Below, piece after piece: positions 599-14,726 of a stretch of 64,000 nucleotides of DNA. A program made the translations under genes and the position numbers. How positions within the stretch are numbered: position 1 is the stretch's first letter; the number at the start of each line of letters is the position of its first letter. The notes under the pieces are model-generated. The model saw only the letters and a list, made by a program, of their open reading frames with translations, was not told the origin of the DNA and ran no database searches. This DNA comes from an uncultured Phocaeicola sp. (GTDB lineage Bacteria > Bacteroidota > Bacteroidia > Bacteroidales > Bacteroidaceae): the NCBI GenBank assembly GCA_948956705.1, contig CARCZS010000006.1, positions 1 to 64,000 of the forward strand. The letters are read 5' to 3'.

Positions 599-1525
599 TC
601 AGTTTATCGGAACGGCATACTGTACTTCCACCTCTTCAGAGAGACGGGAAAGCAGCAGTTCCGCCATGGCTCCGTTCTGCGGAATGAGAGCCGGAAAATC
701 TGTTTTCCCGGGCTTATATATTTCAGTGGCTACATTGTACAGGTCCCATGCGGTAATCTGTCCTTTGCTCATGGCCAGTTTCAGCACCTCTTCCGTGAAG
801 ACAGAAATCTGGCTCTGGTTCAACGGGTAGGTTTCCACAGTGGATGACAGGTTTCTGTCCGAACTGTCATGGGAAACGCGCAAGGCTGTCAGCAGGCCGA
901 TGTACAGGTAGATTTCCTCCATCGGGACAATCCTGCGTTTCAACCGCTGTATCCGTTCGATGTCCTCGTTCATGTTCACCTCGAAATTGGCCAGCCAGCC
1001 GTCCACGGTTTCGAAGAGCTCATCGGTTGTCACCTTCTTTTTCCCGTAATTGCAGATGCTCCGCTGCGGTGAGAGGATGCACTGGTTATGGCATATCTTC
1101 ACGCAGGGGCCTATGGCTGCCTGTATGCCGTCCTGGTGGTAGGCGACGACCAGTGTGGTTGTCAGCTCGTCTGTCTCCCAATCTCTGATCCGGATAGTAG
1201 CGAAAATACGGCGCAGGATATGGGCTTCCACGGCTTTTTCGCCATGTGTCTGTTCTACCTGCGGGAGGATGCTCACTCCCGGCTGTGTCTTGTTTCTGTT
1301 CTGGGCAGCGAAGATTTCTTCCACCTCATAATCGAGATTGTATTTCTCGCAGATGTCCATCATGCGCCGGATGACCTGATAATGGTAGATGCCCTGCACC
1401 GGATTGTTGTAGATGTCATTTTCTTTATAGGTGCGTTGAAGTGTCTCGAAGTTCATCACTTCAATTCCGTTTTTCTGGAAGTCAAACTGCTGTTGTCTTT
1501 CCATTACTGCCAATGTCGTTTCCAT
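599..1525 (-). CDS. Conserved hypothetical protein, 308 aa, of the mobile region
   Basis: The frame starts with METTLAVMERQQQFDF; a second Met at codon 8 is a possible start. The body contains a beta-rich central part with a CVKICHNQC cluster, where three closely spaced cysteines may bind metal. A helical second half ends in YAVPIN. The layout recalls DUF932-like phage/plasmid proteins, but this is only a weak impression and no function is assigned. It is the last gene of the leftward unit that begins with the DUF4120-like gene at 1860, 44 bp upstream. Confidence 0.75.
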   Translation of the reverse strand: METTLAVMERQQQFDFQKNGIEVMNFETLQRTYKENDIYNNPVQGIYHYQVIRRMMDICEKYNLDYEVEEIFAAQNRNKTQPGVSILPQVEQTHGEKAVEAHILRRIFATIRIRDWETDELTTTLVVAYHQDGIQAAIGPCVKICHNQCILSPQRSICNYGKKKVTTDELFETVDGWLANFEVNMNEDIERIQRLKRRIVPMEEIYLYIGLLTALRVSHDSSDRNLSSTVETYPLNQSQISVFTEEVLKLAMSKGQITAWDLYNVATEIYKPGKTDFPALIPQNGAMAELLLSRLSEEVEVQYAVPIN

Positions 1526-1569
1526 ATTGAATTGAATTTTATAAAGTTAATATTGTCGTTTGCCTCTCA

Positions 1570-1860
1570 TCAGGTGTGTATCTGCCATCCATGGAACGGC
1601 TGTAGTGTCACGGCGAAAGAACGGTCCGGTATTCCGTGATAGAGCAGGCCGCCCACGATGCCCGTCCTTCCATCGGGATAGCATTGGGTGAAGCCGAACG
1701 AGTACGGGGCATGGTCATAGTAGAGTGAGATTTCGCTGGGACAGTCAGGATTTTCTTCCCAGCTCTTCAACCGTTCCAGGCATTTCTGGAGTGAGGTGTC
1801 ACCGATGGATTCGGCATAACGCTTAACATTCTCGAAATGTTCTTGATTCAGGATTTTCAT
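1570..1860 (-). CDS. DUF4120-like protein
   Basis: This 96-residue protein carries the segments LYYDHAPYSFGF, YPDGRTGIVGGLLYHG and PFHGWQIHT. I associate these with the DUF4120 family carried by Bacteroides conjugative elements; the family name is from memory. Function is unknown. It is the first gene of a two-gene leftward unit. Its start lies 55 bp from the first copy of the structured repeat (1915-2076), which would form its 5' leader if transcription begins to the right of the repeat. Confidence 0.7.
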   Translation of the reverse strand: MKILNQEHFENVKRYAESIGDTSLQKCLERLKSWEENPDCPSEISLYYDHAPYSFGFTQCYPDGRTGIVGGLLYHGIPDRSFAVTLQPFHGWQIHT

Positions 1861-1914
1861 GATTCATTGTATTTTATCTGTTAAACATGTCCGGCTCCGG
1901 GAGCCGGTATTTTT

Positions 1915-2076
1915 ATTTCTCACCTGCCTGACTGTCCCGTGGCAGTACCCGCAAGGTTTGGCGAAAGAAAATACCGCAGCCGTCAGGCGAGGATGATTTT
2001 CTTTCAGCCAACCCCGCAAGGGGCCTGACATTGACAGGGTACACCGGACACGGGACTACCTTTGCAGGGTGGGAAA
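1915..2076. repeat. Structured repeat, copy A
   Basis: First of three copies. The outer arms at 1915-1927 and 2064-2076 pair with one mismatch and one bulge. Further in, GTCCCGTG pairs with CACGGGAC and GTACCC with GGGTAC. The core stem GAAAGAAAAT (1963-1972) pairs perfectly with ATTTTCTTTC (1996-2005) and encloses ACCGCA, a small GCC/GGC hairpin, and GAGGATG. The plus strand carries TACCTTTG at 2057-2064, a match to the Bacteroides -7 box. An extra perfect hairpin (CCGGCTC CGG GAGCCGG, 1891-1907) lies between this copy and the DUF4120-like gene. Confidence 0.8.
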
Positions 2077-2182
2077 TAAAATACACGGTAGTGTGCTTTG
2101 CATGGTCTGTGGCGATTCTCTTCCTGATTTGTTCGCCATTGCCGGACAAAAGATGTATTTTTGCAATTCTAATTTCAGTTTT

Positions 2183-2527
2183 ATGGAAAACTATATAAAG
2201 AAAGCGGCGGATGCTTTCCTTGTGGAGCGTCCGTACGGTATGCGTGTGGATTACAGGAAGAAAGGATTCGTGCTGTTTAACCGTAACCTCAATGTGTTGG
2301 GAAATGCGGAACAGACCCGTCTGGAAGAACTGCCTCTGGAGCGGTTCAATGTGGAGGAGATTCCGTTGGAGGGTGAAGTCGTGGAGGAACACGCAGGATT
2401 TACCGATGTATTCTTCTATACCGATCTGACCAATCCCTATGCCGGATATGTGCTGAATTTGCAAAAGCTTAAAGCCTATAACCGGTTGATGTTTCCGCTG
2501 GCAATGGCGCTGAACCGTGAATTGTGA
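2183..2527 (+). CDS. Hypothetical protein, 114 aa, rightward gene in the mobile region
   Basis: This is the only convincing rightward gene between 0.6 and 14 kb. I place the start at the ATG at 2183 (MENYIKKAADAFLVERPYG), not at the in-frame ATG at 2069. A clean -7 box, TATTTTTG at 2156-2163, followed by C lies just upstream and would fall inside the longer frame. The protein is acidic, with a central run of Glu-rich beta segments (RLEELPLERFNVEEIPLEGE). No domain was recognised. It converges on the gene at 2588, with a hairpin in between. Confidence 0.65.
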   Translation: MENYIKKAADAFLVERPYGMRVDYRKKGFVLFNRNLNVLGNAEQTRLEELPLERFNVEEIPLEGEVVEEHAGFTDVFFYTDLTNPYAGYVLNLQKLKAYNRLMFPLAMALNREL

Positions 2528-2541
2528 GGCCGGAAGCCGGT

Positions 2542-2577
2542 AGCGGTAACAGCTGCATGGAGCAGACCGTTACCGCT
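2542..2577. terminator. Bidirectional hairpin between convergent genes
   Basis: AGCGGTAAC (2542-2550) and GTTACCGCT (2569-2577) pair perfectly. The hairpin lies in the 60-bp gap between the rightward gene ending at 2527 and the leftward gene ending at 2588, the normal place for a shared terminator. The following plus-strand sequence (CCGGATTTAATTATTT) is moderately T-rich. Confidence 0.6.
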
Positions 2578-2587
2578 CCGGATTTAA

Positions 2588-3298
2588 TTATTTGCCCTCT
2601 TTTTCTGTAATGAACGCCAGATAGGCGGACACGGCCTTATGGCATCCGGTAAAGTCCGGAGTCCGGCAGCCCTTGATTTTCCGGAAACTGACGGTGCCGT
2701 TCCTGTCAATGCCCCTCACATGCCTATTGAATGTCCCTTTGGTTCTGATATGGATGTCAAAACCGTCCCTTCCGGTGATTTCAAGGAACATTTCTCCCGT
2801 GATCCGTTCCCCGTCCAGGAATTTCCGTTTCTGTTCATTGAGCAGCCACTGATGTTGCTCTTCCTGCACTCTGCGCTCTTTCGCCTCTTTCTCCTTCTGC
2901 TCCCTGCGTTTCTGCTCCTGTATTCTTTTATACTCCTCACGGGCTTGCACCAGGGAAGTGGTATCAAGTCCGAGAGCCTCGAACACGCGGACGGAGATCA
3001 AATTGACGAAGGCTCCTCTTTCCGCACTTTGAAGCGTATCCGCAATCCAGTTCCTGCAATAGGTGGCGGCTTCCTCTCTGCAACCTTCTCCCTTGAGAAA
3101 CCGGCGTGAATACTGCCCGCTGGAAAAATAAACGTTTTCAATCCGGCAGACCACATGGAAACAGTCATCGTCTTCATTCCCGTATTCGTTCTTTCTCGAC
3201 AGGGAGAGATATACATTCTTCGCATACGGCTCCAGTTCCATATAAGAAGCCACGACGGTATTCCCGTCAGACTTGTACTTGAACACTTTTGCTTTCAT
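2588..3298 (-). CDS. Hypothetical protein with central coiled coil, 236 aa
   Basis: The N-terminal 105 residues look globular. A long charged helix follows (about residues 115-160, with repeats such as KRREQKEKEAKERR) and is almost certainly a coiled coil. The C-terminal 75 residues are compact (FRKIKGCRTPDFTGCHKAVSAYL). No family was recognised. It is the last gene of the leftward string that starts downstream of repeat copy B. The neighbour at 3301 lies 2 bp away, which implies a shared transcript. Confidence 0.7.
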   Translation of the reverse strand: MKAKVFKYKSDGNTVVASYMELEPYAKNVYLSLSRKNEYGNEDDDCFHVVCRIENVYFSSGQYSRRFLKGEGCREEAATYCRNWIADTLQSAERGAFVNLISVRVFEALGLDTTSLVQAREEYKRIQEQKRREQKEKEAKERRVQEEQHQWLLNEQKRKFLDGERITGEMFLEITGRDGFDIHIRTKGTFNRHVRGIDRNGTVSFRKIKGCRTPDFTGCHKAVSAYLAFITEKEGK

Positions 3299-3300
3299 TG

Positions 3301-3666
3301 TTACATTTTTTTTGATTGTCCGTTCATATAATCCGTAATTCTCATTTCCAGTTCATCGTATATCCGGTTGAACAGTTCCTGGTACTCTTCCAGAAAAGCC
3401 CCGTCCGTATCGCACATGTCTTCGAGTGTCTTTCCATTTGCACGGCACAGCTCCGTATCGGCCAGCTCACAGACAATTTCGTTGAGCATCGAGCGGTCCT
3501 TGTCTTCGGGAAGCAGCCCTCCTTTTTTCAGGAGGCAGTAATTACGGATATTGATTCGCAAATACAGGTCCGCCTCTTTCCACCGTCCATCGGGAAAAAG
3601 AGAGAATGCCTGTTTCAGTCCGTCGGGCTGTCCGCCCCACCATTCGTTCAAATTGTTCGGTTCCAT
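3301..3666 (-). CDS. Hypothetical acidic protein, 121 aa
   Basis: A small protein beginning MEPNNLNEWWGGQPDGLKQ, rich in Asp/Glu and predicted largely helical. No domain was recognised. It is packed between the coiled-coil gene (2-bp gap) and the J-domain gene (10-bp gap) on the same strand, so it is very likely translated from the same message. Function unknown. Confidence 0.7.
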   Translation of the reverse strand: MEPNNLNEWWGGQPDGLKQAFSLFPDGRWKEADLYLRINIRNYCLLKKGGLLPEDKDRSMLNEIVCELADTELCRANGKTLEDMCDTDGAFLEEYQELFNRIYDELEMRITDYMNGQSKKM

Positions 3667-3676
3667 ATTGATAAGT

Positions 3677-4699
3677 TTAATTGATTACTGTCTGTTTGGT
3701 TTGCCATTGCCGATGGGCGGTGATGTATTCCTGTCGTTCCTTCTCCAGTAACGCTTCTGCTTCGGGAGTGTAGCCGATAAAACGAATGTAACCGCCGTTA
3801 TATCCGGTAAGCTTGCACCGAATACCGGCTTTCTCCAATTTGTCGATCCGTTTCTGAGCCAGTTTCGCGCTTGAATAATCCTTCGGCCAGAAATAATGCT
3901 CTCCGTGTGAGCCGTAATGGTCTTCTCCGAGTATCATTTCGCCGGAATGCCTCCTGTGTTCGATGAAATCGAAACGGGCTGTGCCCAACGCCTGCCTGAT
4001 GGCCTTGTGTGCCGGACCTTCGGGATGCTTGAACACTTCCGGCTTGTCCTTTCCCTTGCAGTCAAGTTTCGGCAGTTCCACCTTGTAAGGCTTCCGGTAA
4101 CTCCCTATAGCCAATGTCAGGTAGAAATTGGTATGGAAATAATCCGTCATCGCATCGCTGTCATCGAAGTTGTATGACATGACAAAGTCACAGACATTCA
4201 GCATCACCTCCTTGGCACGGTCTGTAAGATCGGGGTTCCGCTCTATGTTGTAGTGGTTGATATGATCCTGCACTTTGCCGGATTCCCTGGTGAACGCCTC
4301 AAAGTCCGCACTCATTAGTTTGATGTAAATGGAATTGTAGTTCTCCCGTCTGACGGAGAACTTATATCTCGGATAGGTTTCCTTTAGCCAGGTTCTCACA
4401 AGTTCTACGATTTCAGGGGCATGTTGCCCTTTGTAGTTGTGACCTTTCCAACGGTATTCATTATACACGTACTCGGTATATTCCTTTGCCGTGGCACCCG
4501 AATAGTCATGTTCATACCCGGTTGATGCGGCAGAGACATCCGGTTTGTCTTTCCAGACTTTAAAGAGCCTTTCAAACTCGGTGTTCACCTGTTGCATGAT
4601 GGCAGTGTCACCACCCTTGTCCGGGTGGTGCTGCAATGCCAGACGGCGGTATTCCTTCTTCAGGTCCGCCAATGAATGTATGTTATGAAAATAAGCCAT
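3677..4699 (-). CDS. J-domain protein with LPD29-like middle region
   Basis: Residues 1-50 form a J domain: the helix II arginines (KKEYRRLALQ) lead into HPDKGG, with the essential HPD at 25-27. J domains stimulate the ATPase of Hsp70/DnaK. The middle (about residues 75-200, with LKETYPRYKFSVRRENYNS) resembles the LPD29 domain of large polyvalent proteins of mobile elements. The C-terminus carries a second alpha/beta unit (KLTGYNGGYIRFIGYTPE). It lacks the G/F linker and zinc finger of true DnaJ, so it is a specialised co-chaperone, perhaps directing host DnaK to element proteins. Confidence 0.75.
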   Translation of the reverse strand: MAYFHNIHSLADLKKEYRRLALQHHPDKGGDTAIMQQVNTEFERLFKVWKDKPDVSAASTGYEHDYSGATAKEYTEYVYNEYRWKGHNYKGQHAPEIVELVRTWLKETYPRYKFSVRRENYNSIYIKLMSADFEAFTRESGKVQDHINHYNIERNPDLTDRAKEVMLNVCDFVMSYNFDDSDAMTDYFHTNFYLTLAIGSYRKPYKVELPKLDCKGKDKPEVFKHPEGPAHKAIRQALGTARFDFIEHRRHSGEMILGEDHYGSHGEHYFWPKDYSSAKLAQKRIDKLEKAGIRCKLTGYNGGYIRFIGYTPEAEALLEKERQEYITAHRQWQTKQTVIN

Positions 4700-4711
4700 A
4701 GCTATAGGTAT

Positions 4712-4921
4712 TTATGCCCCTGCGAGGCGGTTGATAAAATATTCCTGGTTGTCAAGGTCAAGCCCGAGGTTGCTGCACGCCATTTCGATGTCATCTTCCC
4801 TCAGGTCGTCCGCCTCTTGCAACTCGCGCAGGTACCGGATTTCAGAATCCAAGTATTCCTGCGCTTCCATATGGCTGCAACTGCATGAGTTGCTAATCTG
4901 TTCAATGATGTTAATCTGCAT
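4712..4921 (-). CDS. Small hypothetical protein, 69 aa
   Basis: The start chosen is MQINIIEQISNSCSCS at 4921, because it follows the stop of the upstream gene (4923) by one base; a longer in-frame extension would overlap that gene. The protein is acidic and helical (REDDIEMACSNLGLDLDN), with a Cys-Ser-Cys-Ser cluster near the N-terminus. No family was recognised. It is translationally coupled to the zinc-ribbon-like gene upstream. Confidence 0.65.
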   Translation of the reverse strand: MQINIIEQISNSCSCSHMEAQEYLDSEIRYLRELQEADDLREDDIEMACSNLGLDLDNQEYFINRLAGA

Positions 4922-4922
4922 A

Positions 4923-5555
4923 TTATTCGTTTTTAGAATTATACCTGTTGTAAATTTCCCGTTTATGTTCGTAGTCCCGGCTGTTCCACCATTGGTCTGC
5001 CGCATCAATGAATGTCTGCGTATTTTCTGAAGGCGGAGAGTCACAGACTTTCAACCCTGTGATTTGTTCCTTTGTTTCAAAACCGCACGACTTCCACCAA
5101 CCCTGCATCTTTTGTGTGAACTCCGCCTTAGTACAGAAAAAGACCTGAACGCCACATTCTTCGCACCATTTCCCATCGCACCACAGCCCGTTATTGTCAT
5201 CATGCACATATCTGATACGTTCATCCGTATTGGCGTTTATCCATGCTTGGATTTCCAACTGCCGTGAACCGCATTCTTTACAGACAAGGATGTCGGAATC
5301 GTCCGGCTCTTTTCTGAAAGCCCTGCCGTCATAGAGTGCAACGGCACGTTCCACGAGTAGTTTCTGGTTGTTTTCCGATAACTCGGCAAAGAACCGTTCC
5401 GCCGCACCGAATATGGACTTGTCCGCCAATGCGGACCATTTATCCCAGAAGTGCCGGTACATATCTCCAAATACGGCCTTGCATTCTTCCTTGCTCCAGG
5501 CGTTCCACATATAGTAGAAGAAGCTGGAGACTGCATTTTCCGCTTGATATTTCAT
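4923..5555 (-). CDS. Hypothetical protein with a possible zinc ribbon, 210 aa
   Basis: The first 85 residues are helical and aromatic. Then CKECGS and, about 35 residues later, CDGKWCEECG make a plausible four-cysteine zinc site. The C-terminus is rich in Trp and charged residues (DAADQWWNSRDYEHKREIYNR). Its start overlaps the upstream gene by four bases (ATGA-type coupling), and the next gene begins one base after its stop, so three genes here are tightly coupled. The function is not recognised; nucleic acid binding is only an inference from the ribbon. Confidence 0.7.
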   Translation of the reverse strand: MKYQAENAVSSFFYYMWNAWSKEECKAVFGDMYRHFWDKWSALADKSIFGAAERFFAELSENNQKLLVERAVALYDGRAFRKEPDDSDILVCKECGSRQLEIQAWINANTDERIRYVHDDNNGLWCDGKWCEECGVQVFFCTKAEFTQKMQGWWKSCGFETKEQITGLKVCDSPPSENTQTFIDAADQWWNSRDYEHKREIYNRYNSKNE

Positions 5556-6136
5556 TGTTCTTCAGTTTGTGGTTCTACTTTGCTCTCTTCCAGTTGCTGC
5601 CATACAGCCTCATACATTCCGGAAAGCCAGTCGATGTTACTGGCTCCGAGTTCGAACGGGCTGTAACATTCCACTTCATCACCGCTTTCTTTCTCTTCGG
5701 CAAGGACGGTCAGGCTGCAGTCCGTTACCCGGAGTCCTGTCACCCTGCATTCGTAGGGGGCTCCGTTCTTGCCAAACCATATCACCCAGACCGGATCATA
5801 ATCCTCTTCCGGAAACCGTATCGCATTCATGGCATGGTCATGGAGCAACTGCCGTATCGCTTCGATGATGTCTTTTCGCAGTTCTTCGATCCTGTCTCCG
5901 AATACCGACATGGGGGATTTCCCGCCTCGCTGCCTTACGGAGAGAACCTGGAAGTCCGGATGACAACCGAACTTCCAGTCCGTCACTTCATCGTCATCCC
6001 GCGTTGTGTGGATGTTGCCGCCCAATACCAGGCCGCAGTCTTCCGCCACCATGCTTTCCGCTTCTTCACGGTCTTCCGCCACCACTGTATAAGTACCCTC
6101 GAAGATGTACCTTACTTTTACATCGTATTTTTCCAT
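5552..6136 (-). CDS. Hypothetical acidic protein, 194 aa
   Basis: The N-terminal 50 residues (KVRYIFEGTYTVVAEDREEAES) look like a small beta-alpha fold often seen in phage and plasmid proteins. The rest mixes helices with beta strands (VECYSPFELGASNIDWLSGM). The protein is strongly acidic overall. It overlaps the downstream gene by four bases. No specific family or catalytic motif was seen. Confidence 0.7.
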   Translation of the reverse strand: MEKYDVKVRYIFEGTYTVVAEDREEAESMVAEDCGLVLGGNIHTTRDDDEVTDWKFGCHPDFQVLSVRQRGGKSPMSVFGDRIEELRKDIIEAIRQLLHDHAMNAIRFPEEDYDPVWVIWFGKNGAPYECRVTGLRVTDCSLTVLAEEKESGDEVECYSPFELGASNIDWLSGMYEAVWQQLEESKVEPQTEEQ

Positions 6137-6173
6137 AATCTTCTATGATTTGATTGTTGATTAGTTGATTTTA

Positions 6174-7103
6174 TCAGGATACAATGCGAACCGCATCTCC
6201 GAAAAAGGAGTCGTCCACCCCATATACATGCCGAACCGAACAGTCATATTTGGAACGTTCGTCATCCAGCCGGAAGCGGAAACCATGATAGTCCTTGACT
6301 TCCAATTTCAGCTTTACGTCCCGTTTCAGTTCCATTTCAAGCAGGCTTCCACCACCATACGTCGAACTGAAAAGTCCGCAACAGTTGCCTTTGGGGATAA
6401 TGACCTCTTTCAATGAAAAGTCGGCTTCATACAGCTCTTTCAGGCTTACCCTGCCGATGTAAGTCAGCAGGTTCGCCCCGCAGCAGGAATTGATAAGTTC
6501 CTCGTAGAATTGTTCGTAGGAAACCTGCTCCTTGCCGTTCCGGTTCTTACGGTTCGGGAAACGCCCGTAAGCCCTGTAGCCGTGCTCTGTCAGGATTTTC
6601 TTTACTCTCGCCGGATTGAGGTTCAGGCTGTCCACCATGTCCCCGAAGTAGGATTCCTCGTACCTGTAACCGCCTTGCGATTCAAACCAGTTGGAGTTGA
6701 TGCAGTCATAGTTGGAAAGCATCTCCACACGGATAGGAATGTCGTCCGTGTGCCTTACCAATTCCTTCACCACGTCCGAATCGTTGCGGCTGTAAATCTC
6801 GTCACGGATTTCATCTTCGTATTCATCGAAGAAGTCATCGACCGCTTCCCCGTCAAAGTCATGGAATACGGTACATTCCTCTTTCAGTTTCGCAATAATC
6901 TCACGGACAGCTTCCCATTCGGCATCGCTGTACCACTCGTCTGCCTTTTCCCACAAATGTTCGCGGCTCTTGCTGTCAAGGCATTTTTGAATCAGTCCGC
7001 AATGGTTGTCAAGATTGTCATTGTAGTCCGTCCATATTAGTGTATAGGCCGGTTCCATCAGGGATTTGATGAAATCCAATGTCAATGTTTTCTGTTCATC
7101 CAT
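6174..7103 (-). CDS. Hypothetical highly acidic protein, 309 aa
   Basis: The N-terminal half is dense in Asp/Glu (for example DGEAVDDFFDEYEDEIRDE around residues 105-125). The middle contains a helix-turn-helix-like stretch (LNLNPARVKKILTEHGYRAYGRFPNR), and the C-terminus is beta-rich. No family was recognised. A hairpin separates it from the next upstream gene (7194), so it may have its own promoter or receive only partial read-through. Confidence 0.7.
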   Translation of the reverse strand: MDEQKTLTLDFIKSLMEPAYTLIWTDYNDNLDNHCGLIQKCLDSKSREHLWEKADEWYSDAEWEAVREIIAKLKEECTVFHDFDGEAVDDFFDEYEDEIRDEIYSRNDSDVVKELVRHTDDIPIRVEMLSNYDCINSNWFESQGGYRYEESYFGDMVDSLNLNPARVKKILTEHGYRAYGRFPNRKNRNGKEQVSYEQFYEELINSCCGANLLTYIGRVSLKELYEADFSLKEVIIPKGNCCGLFSSTYGGGSLLEMELKRDVKLKLEVKDYHGFRFRLDDERSKYDCSVRHVYGVDDSFFGDAVRIVS

Positions 7104-7157
7104 TTCTGTTACCTGTGTACGGCAGGATTCCTTTTCCCGTACATACCGTTATAAATG

Positions 7158-7185
7158 ACGGAAGCGGCCTTCAAGCCGCCTCCGT
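7158..7185 (-). terminator. Hairpin between genes at 7194 and 7103
   Basis: The arms at 7158-7168 (ACGGAAGCGGC) and 7175-7185 (GCCGCCTCCGT) pair with one mismatch around a 6-nt loop. On the minus strand the hairpin is followed by CATTTATAACGG, so it is a weak intrinsic terminator at best. It may act as a processing or attenuation site within the leftward operon. Confidence 0.45.
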
Positions 7186-7193
7186 GTTGTTTC

Positions 7194-7481
7194 CTAACCA
7201 TACAGTTCCTTCACGATCTTGTCATATATTTCCTTTGCCATTTCCGTATTCCGGTTGAAGTGGAAATAAGCCGTGTATCTGTATCCTGTTCTTGGCACTC
7301 CTCCGCACTGCTGTATTGCCCTGTCTATCTCCCAGTCGATATCACCTATGCCAAGAGATATGCTTGTGCCATGCAGCATACACCGTGCGAGTTTCAATGC
7401 GGAATCTGTCTTGTCTTCCTTGCGCAACCGGTCGAAAGCCATCAGCGCGATTTGTCTGTTTGAAATCTTTATCTCTTCCAT
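7194..7481 (-). CDS. Hypothetical protein, 95 aa
   Basis: A small, mostly helical protein (MEEIKISNRQIALMAFDRLR at the start, EIYDKIVKELYG at the end) with a central GGVPRTGYRYTAYFHFN strand region. No domain was recognised. It lies 20 bp from the upstream gene at 7502 on the same strand and probably shares its transcript. Confidence 0.65.
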   Translation of the reverse strand: MEEIKISNRQIALMAFDRLRKEDKTDSALKLARCMLHGTSISLGIGDIDWEIDRAIQQCGGVPRTGYRYTAYFHFNRNTEMAKEIYDKIVKELYG

Positions 7482-7501
7482 ATATTTTGCATCTGTTTGG
7501 G

Positions 7502-7870
7502 TCAGACAATCCCGGTAAGTTGCCTGAATCGCGCAACTATTTCATTGCATTTGCTTTGGGCAAGTTCCTCATATTTTTTGCAAATGGCACAGTATGCCTT
7601 CCAAGGTTGGCCTCTAAGCTCGTGCTCGTATGAGGACCTGACCAATTCCGGATATTCTTCAAAAAGTGTCTTGAATGCTTTACGCCATTTGCGCCCTTGC
7701 CACAATCCGTTTGCTATCAATGTTATGAATTCAAACATCTGTTCGTCTGTTTTCACATCCAATGCATAAAAATGGTCTGTTGTCGGCCACACGTTGTTGG
7801 AATGCTGCCAAGTTTCTATCTGCTTGGTTTTGGCATTGTATGCCATTCTTGTAATTACCTGGTGACTCAT
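7502..7870 (-). CDS. Hypothetical protein, 122 aa
   Basis: It begins MSHQVITRMAYNAKTKQIETW and contains an aromatic patch (NNVWPTTDHFYAL) followed by a helical C-terminal half with CAICKK. No known family was recognised. It sits 12 bp from the gene upstream and belongs to the leftward operon that begins below repeat copy B. Confidence 0.65.
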   Translation of the reverse strand: MSHQVITRMAYNAKTKQIETWQHSNNVWPTTDHFYALDVKTDEQMFEFITLIANGLWQGRKWRKAFKTLFEEYPELVRSSYEHELRGQPWKAYCAICKKYEELAQSKCNEIVARFRQLTGIV

Positions 7871-7882
7871 ATTGATATGTTT

Positions 7883-8197
7883 TTAGTTCATTACCGTATT
7901 GTCTCTTTTCCTGTCACGGCTTGCCAGCATCCCGAAATGGATGCTGAATATGCGCCGGCTGAAGCAGAGCGGCGAGTTGTATTCCACCCGTTGCCACAGG
8001 GTAAAGTGGTTGTCGGAGAATGACCATCTGAAATATCCTGACAACGAGCCGAATCGCGGGTTTGCATTCCTGTTTATCAGGAACCTGTTCACATCCACGA
8101 TGTGCCCTGCCGTCAGGAGAATGTTCAGTATCTCCACAAACGCCATTTGCGAATAGGGGTCAACCGGCATTACCGGTCCTTTGAAGTTGATTTCCAT
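7883..8197 (-). CDS. Hypothetical protein, 104 aa
   Basis: The protein starts MEINFKGPVMPVDPYSQMAF and is less acidic than its neighbours, with several aromatic and basic residues (GYFRWSFSDNHFTLWQRVEYN). No domain was recognised. It lies 20 bp downstream of the ArdA-like gene on the same strand. Confidence 0.6.
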   Translation of the reverse strand: MEINFKGPVMPVDPYSQMAFVEILNILLTAGHIVDVNRFLINRNANPRFGSLSGYFRWSFSDNHFTLWQRVEYNSPLCFSRRIFSIHFGMLASRDRKRDNTVMN

Positions 8198-8217
8198 CTT
8201 GTATATGTTTATATGCT

Positions 8218-8727
8218 TTAATCGTAATTGTCATCGAATACCTCGAAGCGGGGAATACCCGTGTCGAAATAGTTGCTTGATATGCCCGGACAGTACAGCA
8301 GGCTGTCATCCCCGCTGTCCGGGCAAGGCTCATCGTCGATATAGGCCGCATTTCCATAAAGTTCGATATAGTGCGCCACCAGCAGGTGCGGGTCTTCCGT
8401 ACTGATGTCATGCCCGTAACGGTCACACCAGTCGAAGAAGCAATCCTTGTCGGGTTCCTCCAGCTGTTCCATCGCCTCCCTTATCTCGAAGAAGTTGGGA
8501 CACAGCCATTCCCGGTTGATGAGCAGGTCCGGGATTTCCTCCCATTTCGTGTACCTGTATTCCGGAGTTTCCTCTTCGGGGAACAGTTCGGAGCAGGTGC
8601 ACAGGAATTCCCCCATGTCGCCGAAGTCGGACATTTGCAGCAGGTTGTCTTTTTCCTGCCCCATGTCTATGAGATGCTGCGTGGTCACTGCCACTTCTGC
8701 CTGATTCAAGTCCATGATATTCTTCAT
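8218..8727 (-). CDS. ArdA-like antirestriction protein
   Basis: The protein is 169 residues long and very acidic. The order of conserved-looking blocks (DMGEFLCTCSELFPEEETPE, then WEEIPDLLINREWLCPNFF, then a helical IREAMEQLEE block) matches what I remember of the ArdA family. ArdA proteins mimic DNA, block type I restriction enzymes, and protect incoming mobile DNA. It is the first gene of the leftward operon, and its start lies 25 bp from repeat copy B. A second Met (codon 5) could also be the start. The family call is from memory, without alignment. Confidence 0.6.
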   Translation of the reverse strand: MKNIMDLNQAEVAVTTQHLIDMGQEKDNLLQMSDFGDMGEFLCTCSELFPEEETPEYRYTKWEEIPDLLINREWLCPNFFEIREAMEQLEEPDKDCFFDWCDRYGHDISTEDPHLLVAHYIELYGNAAYIDDEPCPDSGDDSLLYCPGISSNYFDTGIPRFEVFDDNYD

Positions 8728-8751
8728 TATAGTTTATGATTCGGAACCGGG

Positions 8752-8914
8752 GATTTCATTCCACAGGCTCCAAAAGGTCCGCACCCCGGCAGTGCAGGGT
8801 TTTTCGGGAAAATACCGGAGCCTCCGGCGAGGATGATTTTCCCGAAAACCGCTTGCGGCATGACCTTGCCCTGCCGGTAAGGGGGCGGGCTACCTTTGCC
8901 TGTGGAATGGAATC
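8752..8914. repeat. Structured repeat, copy B
   Basis: The outer arms CATTCCACAGGC (8757-8768) and GCCTGTGGAATG (8898-8909) pair perfectly over 12 bp. AAAGG then faces CCTTT, and a G+C-rich part follows. The core stem CGGGAAAAT (8805-8813) pairs perfectly with ATTTTCCCG (8836-8844) around ACCGGA, a small GCC/GGC hairpin, and GAGGATG, the same core as in copies A and C. TACCTTTG is at 8891-8898 on the plus strand. The copy fills the whole gap between the ArdA-like gene and the methyltransferase/helicase gene. Confidence 0.8.
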
Positions 8915-8942
8915 TGCGGTTTCTCATTTGTTTTTCCATTTT

Positions 8943-11900
8943 TCAGTTCATGATGCGCTGGCTTCCCCAGCTGATGTGTATCTTGCCTTCGCTGTCCCGT
9001 TCCCTGACCAGCAGGCTCTCGATGACGGACATGGTGACGTCGAACTCCTCGAAGATTTCCGACTGTTCCTTTACTTCGCCCGTCTTGATGAACTCGTTCA
9101 GCCGCTCTTTGGTAAGCACCAGCGCCATCAGGTTCTGCTCCACGGAGTCCTTGTAGGTGACATAATGCACGTCCTTCAGCTCTTTGGAGTCGAGACGGAT
9201 GAAACGGAAGTAGAACTGCTCCATCTTCGGGATGTTCCATTGCAGGGATTCAAGTATCACGTCGTTGCAAGTGGGTATGTTCACCGAACTGCTCAGGCTC
9301 TGCTGCGTGCATACCAGTATGCCGTTGATGGTGGAATCGAACTCCGTCACGATGCTTTGCCGTTTCTTGAACGCCACGTCTCCCTTGACCACAAATACGG
9401 GACGGTCAGGAAAACATTCGCGAAGACGGCTCTCGTAAAGGTCGAATGCGGCTATGGACGTGCAGCCGACAGCCACCTTGCCGGGTATCTTCCGTACCAG
9501 CCTTTCGATGTACCTTGTCTTGTTCGGAATCCCGTCTCCGGAATAGCCCTCTATCAGGTGTGGGACGGAGCAGGCCTTGATGAGCAGCTTGATCTGGCGC
9601 ATAAGCCGGAGTCCGGCATCCTTCTTTGCATCCCCCGTGCTGTTGTAATACAGTTCGCAGATGCGGCAGAACTCCTCGATGATGACACGGTAAACCTCAC
9701 GCTCGCCGTCGGACGGGCTGACGGTATGTGTCCGTATCTTGTATTTCTCTCCTGCAAAGTCCCTGAACTTGCGTGTAATGACGGTCTTCCCGATAAGGCC
9801 GGCCAGCTCCTCCTTGTTATAGACATCCTGGTTCTGTTTCTCAATGCCGAACACGGTGGATTTCCCCGGACAGTGGCAGGCACGGAAAAGCACATGCCCC
9901 CTGAAAGCGGGGAACGGCTCACCATAGTGCGGATTGTTATCTTCCTCTATCTCCTTGTCCCTGCTCTCGTGGTACACTCGACTGCTCCAACAGACCATGT
10001 TTATGGAATTGTTATACAACAATTCAAACTGGCTGTACAGTTCGGCGATGTTGTTGCGTGTGGTCGTACCGGTGTCGAGTATCTTGTATTTGAGGCGGCG
10101 GAAGAGACCGAGGATATGCCTTGTACGTTGTGACGACGGGTTGGTTATCTCGTCCGACTCGTCGAAAACAAGGCACAGTTTTCTTGAACTGCGTTTGACA
10201 AACCTTGCCATGCCCCGTTTCAGCTTGCCGAGCATGGAGGTGGATAGGACGAGGAACACGCCTTCCGGCACAGTTTCCAGGTCGGCATTCTTCCTTGCCA
10301 CCCGGAACTGTTCCCTGTTTATCGAGAGGAAGGGTATCCATGTCATATTGGTGGCGATGGCAGGAGCCAGTATGATGACATTCCGTACTTTGCGGAATTT
10401 GAGCAGGTATTTGGCACGATGGTACACGGCGGCTGTCTTGCCCGAGCCTTGCTGCCAGTTCAGCAACGCGTGGCGTTTCTGCAAGACGAGGTTCAGGTCG
10501 TGTTTCTGGAGCGTGGTAAACTCGCAGGTCTCGCCGTCCTTGTTGATGAATGCACACCGGTCCAGGTATTCTTTCAGCCTGTCATCTTCCTCCATTTCCG
10601 GGAACTGCCGGTTCTGCATTTCATATTCTCTCCGTTTGCGTCGTATCAGTTTCTCCGCCGCACGGATTTGATGCATGTTCTTTTCTGTCGGCACTTCCGG
10701 TATGGGCAGTTCGGCACGCTCCAGCACGAGGTCGTTGATACTCGCCGCCTTGTGCGGAACTTTGTCAAGGAGTCGCGGAGCATATTGTTTCAGTTTGAAG
10801 CCGTATGAGGTCTTCACCAATGCCACTTCCTTGCGAGGTACGGTATTTTGCGAGGTGATGTACCTGCGGATGACGGCAAGCACTTTCTTCGGGGTCAGCT
10901 TGTTCTTCTCCCATTGCTCCACCTGCTCCCGCGTGGCGTTCTCAGGCGGTTTCTGGTTACGGAACTTCGTGACCAACGCTTCCGCCTTGTCTATATGTCT
11001 GTTCAACTTGGCGTGCGCCTTCAGCTCGTACAGGTACTTGGCAAGTTTGTACTCGAACAGCTCAAGTTCTTCCTTGTCGATCCGGTTGGTTTCGCGCATC
11101 AGGTCGAAACGCAACCGGTGTTTCATCGCCCTTGCCTCGCCGATGCGCTTTTTCAGCTCGTCCGCCGTTATGAATTCCTCCGCGTTGTAAGCCTGCATCT
11201 TGATGTGGCCCGATTTACGGAGAAATACCATGATTTTCGTATTGAAGTCATGGACTCCGACTGCGGCAAAGGCTGACGGGGCCAACTTCGTCTGACCGAC
11301 AAATGAGAAATTGCCGTTTATACCGGTTATCCGTGTCTTCTCCCAGAACTCGCTCTGCATGAAAGAGCATGGCACGATGACCATCAGGATTCCTGCCGGA
11401 TTAAGCACATCGTAAGCCTTGTCCATATAGTATTCCTGCGACAGTTTGTAGTCGAACTTCAAGTTAAAAGGAGGATTGCCGATGATAACATCGAAACGTT
11501 GTTCCGGATAGTATTGCCGGATGTCGCATTTCTCGATATGGGCTTCCGGGTAGAGGTATCGTGCGACAGACACGGCCTTGCCGTCTATGTCGAAGCCGTA
11601 GGCATTATGCGGGTTGGGCAGATGGTTGAAGAAATTGCCCATACCGCAACACATGTCAAGAACCATTTCGGATGAGACAGGACACAGCATATCCACCATG
11701 TCCCGGCATATTTCATGCGGGGTGAAGAACTGTCCCATCTCGAACTCCTTCTTCGCCTGGGCATACTCATGGTAGTTGGCAAAGTCGGACTGTTTGAGGT
11801 TGTGCAGCCCTCCGATACCGGTATAGCAGTTGTAGATGCTCTCCGCCGGAATGAGGTCCTTGCCGGAGTCTATGGCGAAAAGTATCTTCTCGTTGACTTC

Positions 11901-11945
11901 GGCACGCATACCTTGCGGTATCTGTTGGGGGATGATGGCATACAT
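8943..11945 (-). CDS. N6-adenine methyltransferase / SNF2-like helicase fusion, 1000 aa
   Basis: The N-terminal half is an adenine methyltransferase: GQFFTPHEI at 71-79, AdoMet motif DMCCGMGNF at 97-105, and catalytic NPPF at 157-160. A helical linker (about 260-460) leads to an SF2 helicase: QQGSGKT (Walker A, 498-504), DESD (Walker B, 595-598) and the motif III-like DTGTTTRNN. The C-terminal lobe ends in a degenerate arginine-finger region (FYFRFIRLDS). Such proteins are carried by Bacteroides conjugative elements, where the role is unproven; self-methylation or DNA remodelling during transfer are possibilities. A terminator separates it from the gene upstream. Confidence 0.85.
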   Translation of the reverse strand: MYAIIPQQIPQGMRAEVNEKILFAIDSGKDLIPAESIYNCYTGIGGLHNLKQSDFANYHEYAQAKKEFEMGQFFTPHEICRDMVDMLCPVSSEMVLDMCCGMGNFFNHLPNPHNAYGFDIDGKAVSVARYLYPEAHIEKCDIRQYYPEQRFDVIIGNPPFNLKFDYKLSQEYYMDKAYDVLNPAGILMVIVPCSFMQSEFWEKTRITGINGNFSFVGQTKLAPSAFAAVGVHDFNTKIMVFLRKSGHIKMQAYNAEEFITADELKKRIGEARAMKHRLRFDLMRETNRIDKEELELFEYKLAKYLYELKAHAKLNRHIDKAEALVTKFRNQKPPENATREQVEQWEKNKLTPKKVLAVIRRYITSQNTVPRKEVALVKTSYGFKLKQYAPRLLDKVPHKAASINDLVLERAELPIPEVPTEKNMHQIRAAEKLIRRKRREYEMQNRQFPEMEEDDRLKEYLDRCAFINKDGETCEFTTLQKHDLNLVLQKRHALLNWQQGSGKTAAVYHRAKYLLKFRKVRNVIILAPAIATNMTWIPFLSINREQFRVARKNADLETVPEGVFLVLSTSMLGKLKRGMARFVKRSSRKLCLVFDESDEITNPSSQRTRHILGLFRRLKYKILDTGTTTRNNIAELYSQFELLYNNSINMVCWSSRVYHESRDKEIEEDNNPHYGEPFPAFRGHVLFRACHCPGKSTVFGIEKQNQDVYNKEELAGLIGKTVITRKFRDFAGEKYKIRTHTVSPSDGEREVYRVIIEEFCRICELYYNSTGDAKKDAGLRLMRQIKLLIKACSVPHLIEGYSGDGIPNKTRYIERLVRKIPGKVAVGCTSIAAFDLYESRLRECFPDRPVFVVKGDVAFKKRQSIVTEFDSTINGILVCTQQSLSSSVNIPTCNDVILESLQWNIPKMEQFYFRFIRLDSKELKDVHYVTYKDSVEQNLMALVLTKERLNEFIKTGEVKEQSEIFEEFDVTMSVIESLLVRERDSEGKIHISWGSQRIMN

Positions 11946-11976
11946 GACTTTATCTGTTTATCGTTAAAAATGAAAA

Positions 11977-12004
11977 CACCCCGCAAGGATTGCCTTACGG
12001 GGTG
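11977..12004 (-). terminator. Intrinsic terminator downstream of the 12025-12966 gene
   Basis: The arms CACCCCGCAAGG (11977-11988) and CCTTACGGGGTG (11993-12004) pair with one mismatch around a 4-nt loop. On the minus strand the hairpin is followed by TTTTCATTTTT, a good U-rich tail. It should stop most transcription coming from the two upstream genes before the methyltransferase/helicase gene, which would then need its own promoter or partial read-through. Confidence 0.75.
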
Positions 12005-12024
12005 CTGTGTAAATCTTATCATGG

Positions 12025-12966
12025 TCAGTTTTCTCTTAGGGTGATTTCATCCAGATGCAGACGCTTGAAACAACTTTCGGCTGCCGCACTGTCCTTGAAC
12101 CGGACATCGATACGTCCGTTCTTGTAGAATCGGATTTGCTCGGCATTGGTGGTCGTAAGGTCGTACCAGTCTGTGACAGAAATGTCGTTGTCATCAAAAC
12201 GGATAATCATCTTTGAATTTCCATTCAGTATGTCATCCGCACCGTAGGCAATGCCGGCACACAGGGTTTCCAGTTCTCCGCCGTAGTTGTAGGAGATTCT
12301 GTTCCTTTGGTTGTATTGCATGGAAAAATCGTCGAAACGGATGATTTCGGGAAAGATTATCTTGTCCTTCTTCAACTCCGTCTTGACTTTGCTCCAGTAT
12401 GCCGGTCTGACAACTTTGTTCAGGCGTGCGAGCAGTTCTTCCACGGCCGTTTCCCGGAAACTCTTGCCGCCCAAGTGTTCGATGACTACATCTACATATG
12501 TGTCATAAACAGGACGGAAGCCCATCGGAAGGGTTTTTTCGTCTATTTTATACTCAGGAACCGACACTTTGTAAGTCCTGTTGAAATAAGAAATGATGCG
12601 GTTCGCAAAATTCGCGTTGGCGTTTCGGTTCTTATCTACCAGATCGTTAATCAGATCAAACGGTTTGAACTCGTTGTGTGAATAGTCTTCCCTGTCGTTA
12701 TGGTAAGTGTAGAAATCACGCATGGAAACCTTGCCGTTTTCTTCGTAATGGGACTTACGTTCGGCTTGGTATTGTTCGGCTTCTTCCTTGAAGACGGCGT
12801 ACCAGCGGTCAATCTGGTCGAGTGTCTTGTAAAGCAGGTTTTGCTGCGTCTGGCAATAGACACGGTCCTGTTCCGTAATCTTGTCCTCGTTTCTCACTTG
12901 TACGCTCAGAATGCCTTGAAGCAGGTCGGGAGCGTTGCCGGCCTTGGGTGCTGTTGTCGTTTGCAT
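12025..12966 (-). CDS. Hypothetical protein, 313 aa
   Basis: The N-terminal third is helical and charged (residues 1-110, including a KDFYTYHNDRED-like segment). The centre carries an ISYFNRTYKVSVPEY stretch, and the C-terminus is beta-rich, ending RLHLDEITLREN. No catalytic motif or family was recognised. It lies 18 bp downstream of the DUF4121-like gene and is followed by a strong terminator, so the two form a unit that starts at repeat copy C. Confidence 0.7.
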   Translation of the reverse strand: MQTTTAPKAGNAPDLLQGILSVQVRNEDKITEQDRVYCQTQQNLLYKTLDQIDRWYAVFKEEAEQYQAERKSHYEENGKVSMRDFYTYHNDREDYSHNEFKPFDLINDLVDKNRNANANFANRIISYFNRTYKVSVPEYKIDEKTLPMGFRPVYDTYVDVVIEHLGGKSFRETAVEELLARLNKVVRPAYWSKVKTELKKDKIIFPEIIRFDDFSMQYNQRNRISYNYGGELETLCAGIAYGADDILNGNSKMIIRFDDNDISVTDWYDLTTTNAEQIRFYKNGRIDVRFKDSAAAESCFKRLHLDEITLREN

Positions 12967-12984
12967 ATCTGTTAGGGTTAAATG

Positions 12985-13812
12985 TTAAAAATTATCCGGT
13001 TTAATCCGGTAGAAATAAGTGATGTGCTTTTCCATGTCCTTGACTATCTTGACCTGCTCGGGATGGAAGTTGAGCCTCCGTTCTTCGGCAGGGGCATCAA
13101 CCTTCTCCCATTCGGCGGATGGCAGGAACACATATTCCCGACGGAAACACCATAACACGATTTGATTATCCCAATTTCCCTTGAACACCGTTCCTTCGTA
13201 GTCCTTCAGGAACTGCCGGAACTCGGCTTCGTCCCGGAAAGCGATGTCAAAGCCTTGATAGAGATTGCCGTTTTCCGATTCCTCCCTTTTGTGTAGGTAG
13301 AACTTCCGGTAGGTCTCGGTCGTGAAATCTCCATACCTGGGATTGGGTTCGGCATAAAACCATAACGGTACCTTAGCCAGAAATGACACCGAACCGTTGG
13401 CGCAAGCACCGCAATGCCCCCATTCCTTGAATACCCCTTCCGTCCATTTCAGGAATTTCAGTTCCTCCGGATTCACGGAATGGAATGCGCCTCCGCTGAC
13501 ACTCAGACGAATATTGCCGTCCTCTTCCCACACGAAAGGCACATACGGCTGTTCGCATACGGAAAGATATCCTTCTTTTGCACTCCTGCTGTCAATAAGG
13601 GCGTTTCCGTAATAATCCCCGTGTTCGGTTACATATACCAGCCTGTCTCCAATTTGAGGTGTAATTTCGGAGCGTGTCCGCTCAATGAGTTCAACATAAC
13701 TGTTGGCCATATCCACATCTTTCTGTGTCAGCCAATGCTGGTGGTCGTATGAAACATTCCGCTCTCTGAGTGTTTCGATACTGTACTTTTCTTTTGTTAC
13801 CTGCTGTGACAT
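12985..13812 (-). CDS. DUF4121-like protein
   Basis: The protein is 275 residues long. The segments GDRLVYVTEHGDYYGNALID, KEWGHCGACANGSVSF and the ending FKGNWDNQIVLWCFRREY resemble the DUF4121 family of Bacteroides conjugative elements; the family name is from memory. The GHCGACANG motif could bind metal or be catalytic, but no function is known. It is the first gene of a leftward unit whose start lies 20 bp from the edge of repeat copy C. Confidence 0.7.
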   Translation of the reverse strand: MSQQVTKEKYSIETLRERNVSYDHQHWLTQKDVDMANSYVELIERTRSEITPQIGDRLVYVTEHGDYYGNALIDSRSAKEGYLSVCEQPYVPFVWEEDGNIRLSVSGGAFHSVNPEELKFLKWTEGVFKEWGHCGACANGSVSFLAKVPLWFYAEPNPRYGDFTTETYRKFYLHKREESENGNLYQGFDIAFRDEAEFRQFLKDYEGTVFKGNWDNQIVLWCFRREYVFLPSAEWEKVDAPAEERRLNFHPEQVKIVKDMEKHITYFYRIKPDNF

Positions 13813-13831
13813 AACAATTTATTTTTAGTGA

Positions 13832-14020
13832 TCCGGCTTTTCGGGGCCGGAGTTCCCGTAACTACAGGCCATAAAAGGTCGTGTCCCGTACATGCAAGGT
13901 TGGCGGGAAAAATACCGCAAGCCCTCCGGGCGAGGATGATTTTTCCACGACACCCGGAGGGCTTGACCTTGCTTGTACGAACAGGACACGGGTTACCTTT
14001 GCCTGTGAGTTACGGGGATT
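13832..14020. repeat. Structured repeat, copy C
   Basis: The outer arms CCCGTAACTACAGGC (13855-13869) and GCCTGTGAGTTACGGG (14001-14016) pair over 15 bp with one bulge. Further in, AAAGGT faces ACCTTT, CGTGTCC faces GGACACG, and CGTACATGCAAGG faces CCTTGCTTGTACG with one mismatch. The core stem GGAAAAAT (13906-13913) pairs with ATTTTTCC (13939-13946) around ACCGCA, a GCCC/GGGC hairpin, and GAGGATG. An alternative 12-bp pairing joins 13919-13930 with 13953-13964. TACCTTTG is at 13994-14001. An extra small GC-rich hairpin (13832-13849) lies on the gene side. Confidence 0.8.
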
Positions 14021-14115
14021 CGGCTACGGTATGGCTGTCATGTCCGCTGTATATGTTTCTTGAAATGACCGTGATATTTTATGCCCGAAAATTACCGGCA
14101 ATCACGAAAAAATGC

Positions 14116-14123
14116 TACCTTTG
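14116..14123 (+). promoter_or_regulatory. Bacteroides-type -7 box facing right near the end of the mobile region
   Basis: TACCTTTG followed by C matches the TAnnTTTG consensus exactly. The -33 region is poor (TTA rather than TTG at the expected distance). An ATG follows 28 bp later, but the frame is only 30 codons. The promoter may once have served a gene lost or cut at the element boundary. Confidence 0.45.
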
Positions 14124-14151
14124 CATCAAGAAAAAAGAGTTATTTGAAAGC

Positions 14152-14244
14152 ATGAGGAATATAGTGATTCTAAACAGCTTGGAATTTTCTTATCCGTTGC
14201 CCGTTCTTATGCGAGTTTTCTACAAAGCGTTGATAATCAAATAA
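14152..14244 (+). CDS. Possible 30-residue peptide or truncated gene start
   Basis: An ATG 28 bp after a -7 box opens a frame of 30 codons (MRNIVILNSLEF..., ending in IIK) closed by TAA at 14242-14244. It is too short to assign. It could be a leader peptide, or the head of a gene cut off where the mobile region meets the chromosome. From 14245 to 14327 I see only AT-rich sequence. Confidence 0.25.
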   Translation: MRNIVILNSLEFSYPLPVLMRVFYKALIIK

Positions 14245-14327
14245 GATACTTCAGATTACAACAAATATAGTGAATATAAAAGAAACAAAAACCTTTTCCT
14301 ACGAATTTCAATGCTTCCTACAACATA

Positions 14328-14726
14328 TTATTTCACCTCTCCCGGCAGATAGCGTAACTGCAAATACTGTTCCCCCGGTTTCAGATATCCCCCTTCGAAT
14401 ATTTCTTTCCTGATCCGGTAAACTTCCACTCTTTTCAATAAGTAATTTTCTACCTTCATCGGCTGCTTTTTACACCAGGAAAGCACTTTCAGACTTCCAT
14501 CGGCATGAACATCCGCATAAACCTTTACCGTTCTTATCGGAGTCCCGTCCGTTATCTTACGTCCTCTTTTATAATCCACCCACAAAATAGCTTTCGCTTT
14601 TTCCCCCTCACATGTTCCGGCATACTCATCCGTTTCGGACGCGGTGGAAGGTGAAGAAGTTCCCTTACAACCTACAACCACACATAAAATCAAAAGATAT
14701 AAAATATAGCTTCCTCGTGTTTTCAT
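14328..14726 (-). CDS. Small lipoprotein, 132 aa
   Basis: A signal sequence (KTRGSYILYLLILCVVVGC) ends in a lipobox with Cys20, so the mature protein should be lipidated and membrane-anchored. A short Ser/Thr-rich linker leads to a beta-rich domain (VKVYADVHADGSLKVLSWC, LRYLPGEVK). I recognise no enzymatic motif. It lies 10 bp downstream of the HdeD-like gene on the same strand and is probably co-transcribed. This is the first gene to the right of the mobile region. Confidence 0.7.
   Translation of the reverse strand: MKTRGSYILYLLILCVVVGCKGTSSPSTASETDEYAGTCEGEKAKAILWVDYKRGRKITDGTPIRTVKVYADVHADGSLKVLSWCKKQPMKVENYLLKRVEVYRIRKEIFEGGYLKPGEQYLQLRYLPGEVK

Follow-up and report, generated by a model that had tools for sequence, protein, structure and literature searches.

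Candidate single-stranded DNA promoters formed by conserved hairpins in integrative conjugative elements of gut Bacteroidales

Introduction

Three hairpins of about 165 nucleotides (nt) each, here referred to as A, B and C, are found in a 64,000-nt stretch of DNA from an uncultured Phocaeicola sp. (assembly GCA_948956705.1, contig CARCZS010000006.1, positions 1 to 64,000; hereafter the window). It is proposed, with a probability of roughly 0.83 and on the basis of sequence, that each hairpin is a single-stranded DNA (ssDNA) promoter of an integrative conjugative element (ICE), that the hairpins form a new family, and that they express establishment genes from the incoming strand. It is also considered likely, if slightly less so, that zygotic expression in ICEs of gut Bacteroidales is controlled by ssDNA promoters of a class specific to the phylum, which has no sequence relationship to the Frpo promoter of conjugative plasmids. 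Gut Bacteroidales exchange genes to a large extent through ICEs of this type, and to our knowledge little is known about the establishment of these ICEs in the recipient. The proposal is built on features that were computed, namely, the fold, the covariation, the strand that folds, a promoter box, the average bubble around this box, the placement before genes, and the orientation relative to relaxase genes. An earlier note on this DNA had described the folded copies; the promoter boxes, the placement before genes and the likeness to ssDNA promoters of conjugative leading regions were absent from it.

As ssDNA, Frpo adopts a stem-loop that carries -10 and -35 boxes. It recruits RNA polymerase in vitro, and transconjugants depend on it for the early expression of leading genes (PMC9849209). 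Samuel et al. sought Frpo-like promoters using five known Frpo/ssi sequences and the TTGACA/TATAAT consensus, and the string "bacteroid" is absent from the accessible part of their text (PMC11541004). In the open-access literature, no title or abstract beginning among the matches listed describes a ssDNA promoter of Bacteroidota, most subscription papers and preprints lying outside this coverage.

Results

Conservation of the fold

The three folded copies claimed in the earlier note are all present where it had placed them (Table 1). Folded as ssDNA, the plus strand reaches -40.0 (A), -55.0 (B) and -65.7 kcal/mol (C), with z-scores of -5.2, -9.4 and -11.3, respectively, and none of 200 dinucleotide shuffles per hairpin was equally stable; energies and z-scores were computed on the coordinates of the earlier note, not on the refined hairpin ends. 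From the base upward, the hairpins contain the outer stem, TACCTTTGC, the spacer stem, and CCTTGC (CATTGA in A) opposite GCAAGG or GCAGGG. In their best folds, A and B have an AT-rich apical stem, AAAAT/ATTTT, with a loop framed by ACCG and GAGGATG, and in these two a short side hairpin precedes CCTTG. Constant across the copies are the apex AATACCG...GAGGATGATTTT, which agrees with the constant internal loop reported before, and (C)CTTG and TACCTTTGC in the 3' arm, two parts that the earlier note did not mention. The earlier author knew of no named family, and none was found here: in the whole window, no hairpin matched Rfam at the gathering score (matches elsewhere were limited to a trp leader and a cobalamin riboswitch), positions 1-16000 gave nothing relevant up to E = 5, and 12 relatives of the element gave no element match and one unrelated group II intron.

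A scan of bacterial and archaeal genomes for the apex pattern yielded at least 118 stretches. Arm complementarity, scored without regard to promoter motifs, splits at least 142 flanked matches into 92 places that score 19 or more and 50 that score 15 or less, some places being repeated by overlapping loci. From among the matches listed and from later loci, 97 distinct elements (the window's included) were drawn, which form 37 clusters at 80% identity. Three of them are alphaproteobacterial and were left out of the arm comparison and the bubble control, leaving 94 elements in 34 clusters.

A plain MAFFT/RNAalifold analysis of 66 sequences recovered six pairs and no covariation because arm lengths differ; it was replaced by a comparison of own with other arms and by a 14-sequence alignment. 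The outer stem pairs with a mean score of 12.5 with its own arm vs 6.3 with arms of other clusters (spacer stem, 9.6 vs 6.0; apical flank, 8.6 vs 5.7). For the outer stem the own arm exceeds the mean of the others in all 34 clusters, and the own partner is the best or tied in 22, 21 and 17 of the 34 clusters for outer stem, spacer stem and apical flank, respectively. In the 14-sequence alignment, which holds mostly B and C types, both sides change in 17 of 40 pairs and 95.7% of cells pair; its covariation score was reached by 0 of 500 shuffles and its pair-type count by 6 of 500, figures to be read with the structure derived from the same alignment, shuffles that ignore relatedness, and clusters that are partly dependent. 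We take the structure to be under selection. One covariance model, R1, finds hairpin A at 1909-2078 (62.3 bits, E = 2e-14); since R1 was built from sequences that include B and C of the window, only the match to A is independent. Further homologues were found, with covariance model matches at E <= 0.001 in 23 of 60 searched relatives of the nearest genome.

The folding strand

A G.T wobble in a folding strand corresponds to A.C in its complement, and a symmetric alignment treats both strands alike. On the plus strand of the 97 elements, G.T wobbles outnumber A.C by 238 to 85. Counted per cluster, G.T is favoured in 23 and A.C in 7, with 7 ties (p = 0.005; Wilcoxon 5e-4), and among the 94 elements the G.T:A.C counts are 113:22 in the outer stem, 40:6 in the spacer stem and 20:7 in the apical segment. 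As a positive control, 13 terminator-like hairpins showed 9 G.T and 2 A.C on the transcript strand. From this excess it therefore appears that the plus strand, opposite to the downstream mRNA, and not the mRNA strand, is under selection to fold.

A sigma factor box in the 3' arm

The primary sigma factor of Bacteroides, sigma-ABfr, reads TAnnTTTG near -7 and TTTG near -33, according to the accessible part of PMC7366714. In the 3' arm of the 97 elements, the best match to TAnnTTTG scores 6 of 6 in 57 elements, 5 of 6 in 32, and lower in 8, as against means of 3.9 after shuffling and 4.0 per cluster on the opposite strand. These statistics use the later set, selected on arm complementarity alone, because an early set of 81 elements had been filtered on CTTG...TTTGC, a filter that drops copy A of the window. 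In the best element of each of the 37 clusters, the A is kept in 37, the three T in 35, 34 and 31, and the G in 35, and the "nn" following TA is variable (TACC, TATC, TATA, TATT, TAAT). Mean pairing along the 3' arm is about 0.9 before the box, falls to 0.3-0.4 over AnnTTT and returns to about 0.9 after it; pairing is 0.32 for the box and 0.64 for AT-matched 6-mers taken from the same arm, the box being lower in 26 of 34 clusters (p = 2.6e-5). As in double-stranded sigma-ABfr promoters, the -7 box is TAnnTTTG, and in the window a TTG lies 22-23 nt upstream. Unlike in those promoters, the box is on the strand opposite to the gene: in double-stranded DNA it faces away from the gene, and it faces the gene only in the folded plus strand.

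A small or antisense RNA read from the plus strand across the hairpin would be expected to show the same G.U bias, the plus strand being the one that folds. However, only 5 of 89 distinct regions have a plus-strand TAnnTTTG to the left of the hairpin at a distance of 15-165 nt, and the fixed -7 box inside the 3' arm would be unexplained, which makes such an RNA highly improbable. Least probable of all is a site at which a protein binds folded DNA, e.g., a recombination site or a secondary transfer origin: it too requires one strand to fold as DNA, and the fixed apex could be its binding site, but it leaves the promoter box, the bubble, and the usual placement and direction relative to genes unexplained.

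Placement before genes

In the window, each hairpin lies 25-52 nt upstream of a minus-strand gene. Of the 81 elements, 76 have a called gene on the 5' side, and for 75 of these 76 the closest such gene is directed away from the hairpin; the other five elements lack one. This count comes from gene calls of our own with a hexamer-scored caller, and near-identical loci were kept. The sole exception (L123) has a 319-codon minus-strand open reading frame (ORF) called across the element edge. With a first, cruder caller, 55 of 74 genes to the left were on the minus strand and 19 on the plus strand, and seven more of the 81 elements lacked a gene. Distances between hairpin base and start codon, which are approximate, have a median of 45.5 nt and fall within 0-60 nt in 57 of 82 cases. 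In 57 of 78 cases, the closest gene on the opposite side is directed toward the hairpin, so that the box has no gene there to serve as a duplex promoter; in the remaining 21, in which the gene reads away, the box could serve it as an ordinary duplex promoter.

None of 68 distinct upstream regions, belonging to genes that lie about -50 to 130 nt from a hairpin, has TAnnTTTG on the gene strand in the 100 nt before the gene, compared with 27 of 115 for control genes from the same loci (p = 1.4e-6). This bears on a further explanation, namely, that the hairpins are structured RNA leaders (riboregulators) in the 5' untranslated region of the minus-strand mRNAs. They do sit just before genes, are strongly structured and covary, but the G.U wobbles that a leader should show in the minus-strand RNA are not seen, the bias running in reverse. 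In addition, a gene-direction -7 box is missing in 68 of 68 regions (a test that a promoter further upstream would escape), TACCTTTGC with its free "nn" has the signature of a promoter, and Rfam holds no match; a leader is thus very unlikely. Where the earlier note had left the choice between a conserved RNA and a folded DNA site, the conserved structure stands, and the DNA option is favoured by a folding strand opposite to the mRNA and a promoter box in the far arm.

Orientation within conjugative elements

The hairpin-bearing region looks like a Bacteroidales ICE. Elements of the A, B and C kinds occur together in one ICE of a relative, B. ndongoniae (G003, the record of L016 and L023). In this ICE we take the tra operons to read leftward and to be followed by mob genes with the relaxase reading rightward, the origin of transfer (oriT) presumably lying between them. 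The G003 relaxase was identified as PF03432 by profile search, and 18 of 19 called genes from element C to the tra region read toward the likely oriT point. In ten genomes searched, 36 elements have a PF03432 relaxase within 65 kb, and 34 of them would, judging from their orientation, drive a gene in the direction of the nearest one. The 36 elements fall into 10 relaxase neighbourhoods of 7 genomes, with 9 neighbourhoods uniform and 1 mixed, and neighbouring elements are on one strand in 36 of 37 cases. Because of this shared orientation, and because relaxase genes typically lie in the lagging region near oriT (accessible part of PMC11541004), the plus strand of the window would be the transferred strand and oriT would lie to the left of the window.

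A single-strand origin (sso/ssi), i.e., a hairpin that only primes the complementary strand on the transferred strand, with expression incidental, would be compatible with the strand bias and with a box for RNA polymerase. Frpo itself, going by the title of the paper that describes it, is said to act both in second-strand priming and as a promoter. A sso has been reported for ICEBs1, and like it, as far as the accessible part of PMC4595007 goes, the hairpins would be strand-specific sites used on transferred ssDNA. Unlike that sso, they stand before genes in a constant orientation and contain a sigma factor box that on average lies in a bubble. Several copies occur per ICE, each mostly shortly before a gene of the same direction, and an origin needs neither; a purely priming role is accordingly considered unlikely.

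Distribution of relatives

The high-scoring named records are mostly Bacteroidales, including Bacteroides, Phocaeicola, Parabacteroides, Barnesiella, Butyricimonas, Odoribacter, Mediterranea, Alistipes and others; the exceptions are records labelled Clostridium or Clostridiales and two alphaproteobacterial metagenome-assembled genomes. The apex pattern is present in 11 of 101 genomes of the family (matches unscreened for arms) and in 7 of 148 genomes across the phylum, where the six outside G001 score 7-13.5 on arms and were taken as chance. Arm scoring covered part of the 66 apex-pattern places in the ten genomes, one of which (L148) scored 7.5 and was likewise taken as chance. BLAST of copy C against a plasmid collection gave no distant match. 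The distribution is patchy, as in mobile DNA.

The Clostridium- or Clostridiales-labelled records with the element (L011, L045, L106, and L114 on JAMPGY010000003.1) are probably misassigned bins or cases of recent transfer. The two alphaproteobacterial genomes contain long hairpins with the AATACCG...GAGGATGATTTT apex (L030:2991, L069:4530, L093:95, and L110 on the minus strand), which have CCCCTTG at the -33 place and lack TAnnTTTG; inspection by eye found no sigma70-like -10 boxes in them. For L030, L069 and L110, the neighbours are called genes in which no signs of a conjugative element were seen by eye. These hairpins may be a chance repeat family or distant relatives.

Two elements, separated by 560-660 nt, often flank a small gene of some 60-100 amino acids (aa), e.g., at about 4693 and 5254 of L174 (G003) and in L021, L052, L096, L097, L104, L114 and L116. 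Where visible, the gene after such a pair is usually of about 700 aa and topoisomerase-like by eye, and in G003 the genes that follow presumably form a PRTRC operon.

Genes and other features of the window

The features of the three hairpins and the genes after them are given in Table 1. The 1000-aa methylase-helicase, among the first genes after C, is suspected of having an anti-restriction role.

Table 1. Hairpins, their parts and the genes that follow them in the window
Feature	Position	Strand	Remarks
Hairpin A	1912..2080	+	Outermost pair 1912-2080; plus is the predicted transferred (folding) strand
Hairpin B	8752..8914	+	Extent of fold
Hairpin C	13850..14021	+	Extent of fold
Fixed apex AATACCG...GAGGATGATTTT of C	13911..13943	+	Counterparts at 1970-2000 (A) and 8811-8840 (B); paired otherwise in best fold of C
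-7 box TACCTTTG of A	2057..2064	+	Predicted unpaired save last base
-7 box TACCTTTG of B	8891..8898	+	First T unpaired, others predicted paired beside bulges
-7 box TACCTTTG of C	13994..14001	+	First T unpaired, others predicted paired beside bulges
-33-like TTG of A, CATTGA	2029..2034	+	23 nt before -7 box
-33-like TTG of B, CCTTGC	8864..8869	+	22 nt before -7 box
-33-like TTG of C, CCTTGC	13967..13972	+	22 nt before -7 box
First gene after A	1570..1860	-	96 aa, DUF4120; ATG about 52 nt from hairpin base
Second gene after A	599..1525	-	308 aa, no Pfam match
First gene after B	8218..8727	-	169 aa, no Pfam or NCBIfam match; ATG about 25 nt from hairpin base
First gene after C	12985..13812	-	275 aa, DUF4121; ATG about 38 nt from hairpin base
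Second gene after C	12025..12966	-	313 aa, no Pfam match
Third gene after C	8943..11945	-	1000 aa; PF02384 (N6 DNA methylase) and PF00271 (helicase C-terminal) over cut-off, SNF2 PF00176 below

The gene at 2129-2527 is the only sizeable plus-strand gene of the 18 called in positions 1-14000, the other exception being a 49-aa call at 148-297. A plus-strand TATTTTTG is located at 2156, between the called start of the 2129-2527 gene and a later in-frame ATG. Further along, a Bacteroidete trp leader (RF01692; 16097-16238) precedes a trpB-like gene, and a cobalamin riboswitch (RF00174) lies at 26905-27107; this region looks like host chromosome adjoining the ICE end.

Discussion

In the proposed mechanism, the plus strand (the predicted transferred strand, or T-strand) would enter the recipient with its 5' end first and then fold, so that a short double-stranded promoter would form, with the 5' arm as its template and the 3' arm as its non-template strand. 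In it, the TTG near -33 would sit in a strong stem, the TAnnTTTG -7 box would lie in a bubble or beside bulges and thus be partly pre-opened, and the AT-rich apical stem may stand in for an UP element. The housekeeping sigma-ABfr of the host, with RNA polymerase, would start near the hairpin base, and transcription of the T-strand would run on into the gene, 25-52 nt further along, while the element still lacks its second strand. In the double-stranded element, the promoter directed at the gene would be gone, with the box facing the other way, and it is proposed that expression therefore stops. The RNA made at the hairpin may also prime second-strand synthesis as a possible second role. The identity of the transferred strand, sigma factor binding, transcription and its timing are the parts of this scheme that we infer.

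Several observations weigh against this interpretation. Hairpin C in its best fold pairs GCCCTCCGGG with CCCGGAGGGC, replacing the apical/core stem GGAAAAAT/ATTTTTCC; of the core stem postulated in the earlier note for all three copies, it holds that it can form in C and covaries in the alignment that includes C (helix 5), and it does not hold that the best fold of C forms it. In the window, an open bubble is found only in A, the -7 boxes of B and C being mostly paired, and in 8 of 34 clusters the box is no less paired than the controls. TAnnTTTG has its first T in 24 of 37 clusters, and the -33 element amounts to a TTG, which in the window precedes the -7 box by 22-23 nt and is part of CATTGA or CCTTGC rather than TTTG. 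Composition explains part of the G.T excess, non-cognate arms giving ratios of 1.68 and 1.29; with one representative per cluster, own arms give 4.25 and 3.40, and the excess over non-cognate arms persists (one-sided Fisher p = 0.011 and 0.038), the strand test being moderate once composition is controlled. With respect to transfer, two elements that lie together (G005:C13) oppose their nearest relaxase, no PF03432 relaxase was found within 65 kb for 30 of 66 pattern matches, and 15 of 36 elements are downstream of the relaxase and would enter late unless counted round the circle; the polarity rests on relaxase position and not on a mapped nic site. Finally, a Pfam scan of 18 of the 28 representative first genes found DUF4121, DUF6926 and a YpsA-like family and left 15 without a match, and a NCBIfam scan of 10 gave one match, below cut-off; with a Pfam family in 3 of 18, the role of these genes in establishment or anti-defence is therefore mostly assumed.

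The family resembles Frpo/ssi of F, ColIb-P9 and related plasmids in that a ssDNA hairpin would rebuild promoter boxes before leading genes, of which F has two copies (accessible part of PMC9849209). The hairpin upstream of F ssb also has an AT-rich apex. In F, the leading and tra genes read in one direction, the position of oriT in this comparison being assumed by us. The differences are that the window family has the Bacteroidota TAnnTTTG, whereas Frpo has TTGACA/TATAAT, that it is found in ICEs of Bacteroidales, and that many copies have an extra short hairpin beside the apical stem. The apex ATACCG...GAGGA is absent from both strands of the 18 kb searched in the F leading region, a search limited to five motif patterns without alignment to Frpo, in which shorter or looser pieces were found. 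The most economical account would be a ssDNA promoter that arose independently or has diverged strongly, and that works on entry and falls silent in the duplex.

If this is correct, the element would mark the first-acting genes of these ICEs, the majority of which (DUF4120, DUF4121 and others) lack an assigned function, would predict the transferred strand, and would help to find anti-defence genes beyond Proteobacteria by sequence. It would further provide a natural example of a promoter not of the sigma70 type that works on folded ssDNA, and ssDNA promoters would have arisen more than once, each fitted to the sigma factor of its host. ICEs of gut Bacteroidales would then run an entry programme from the incoming strand.

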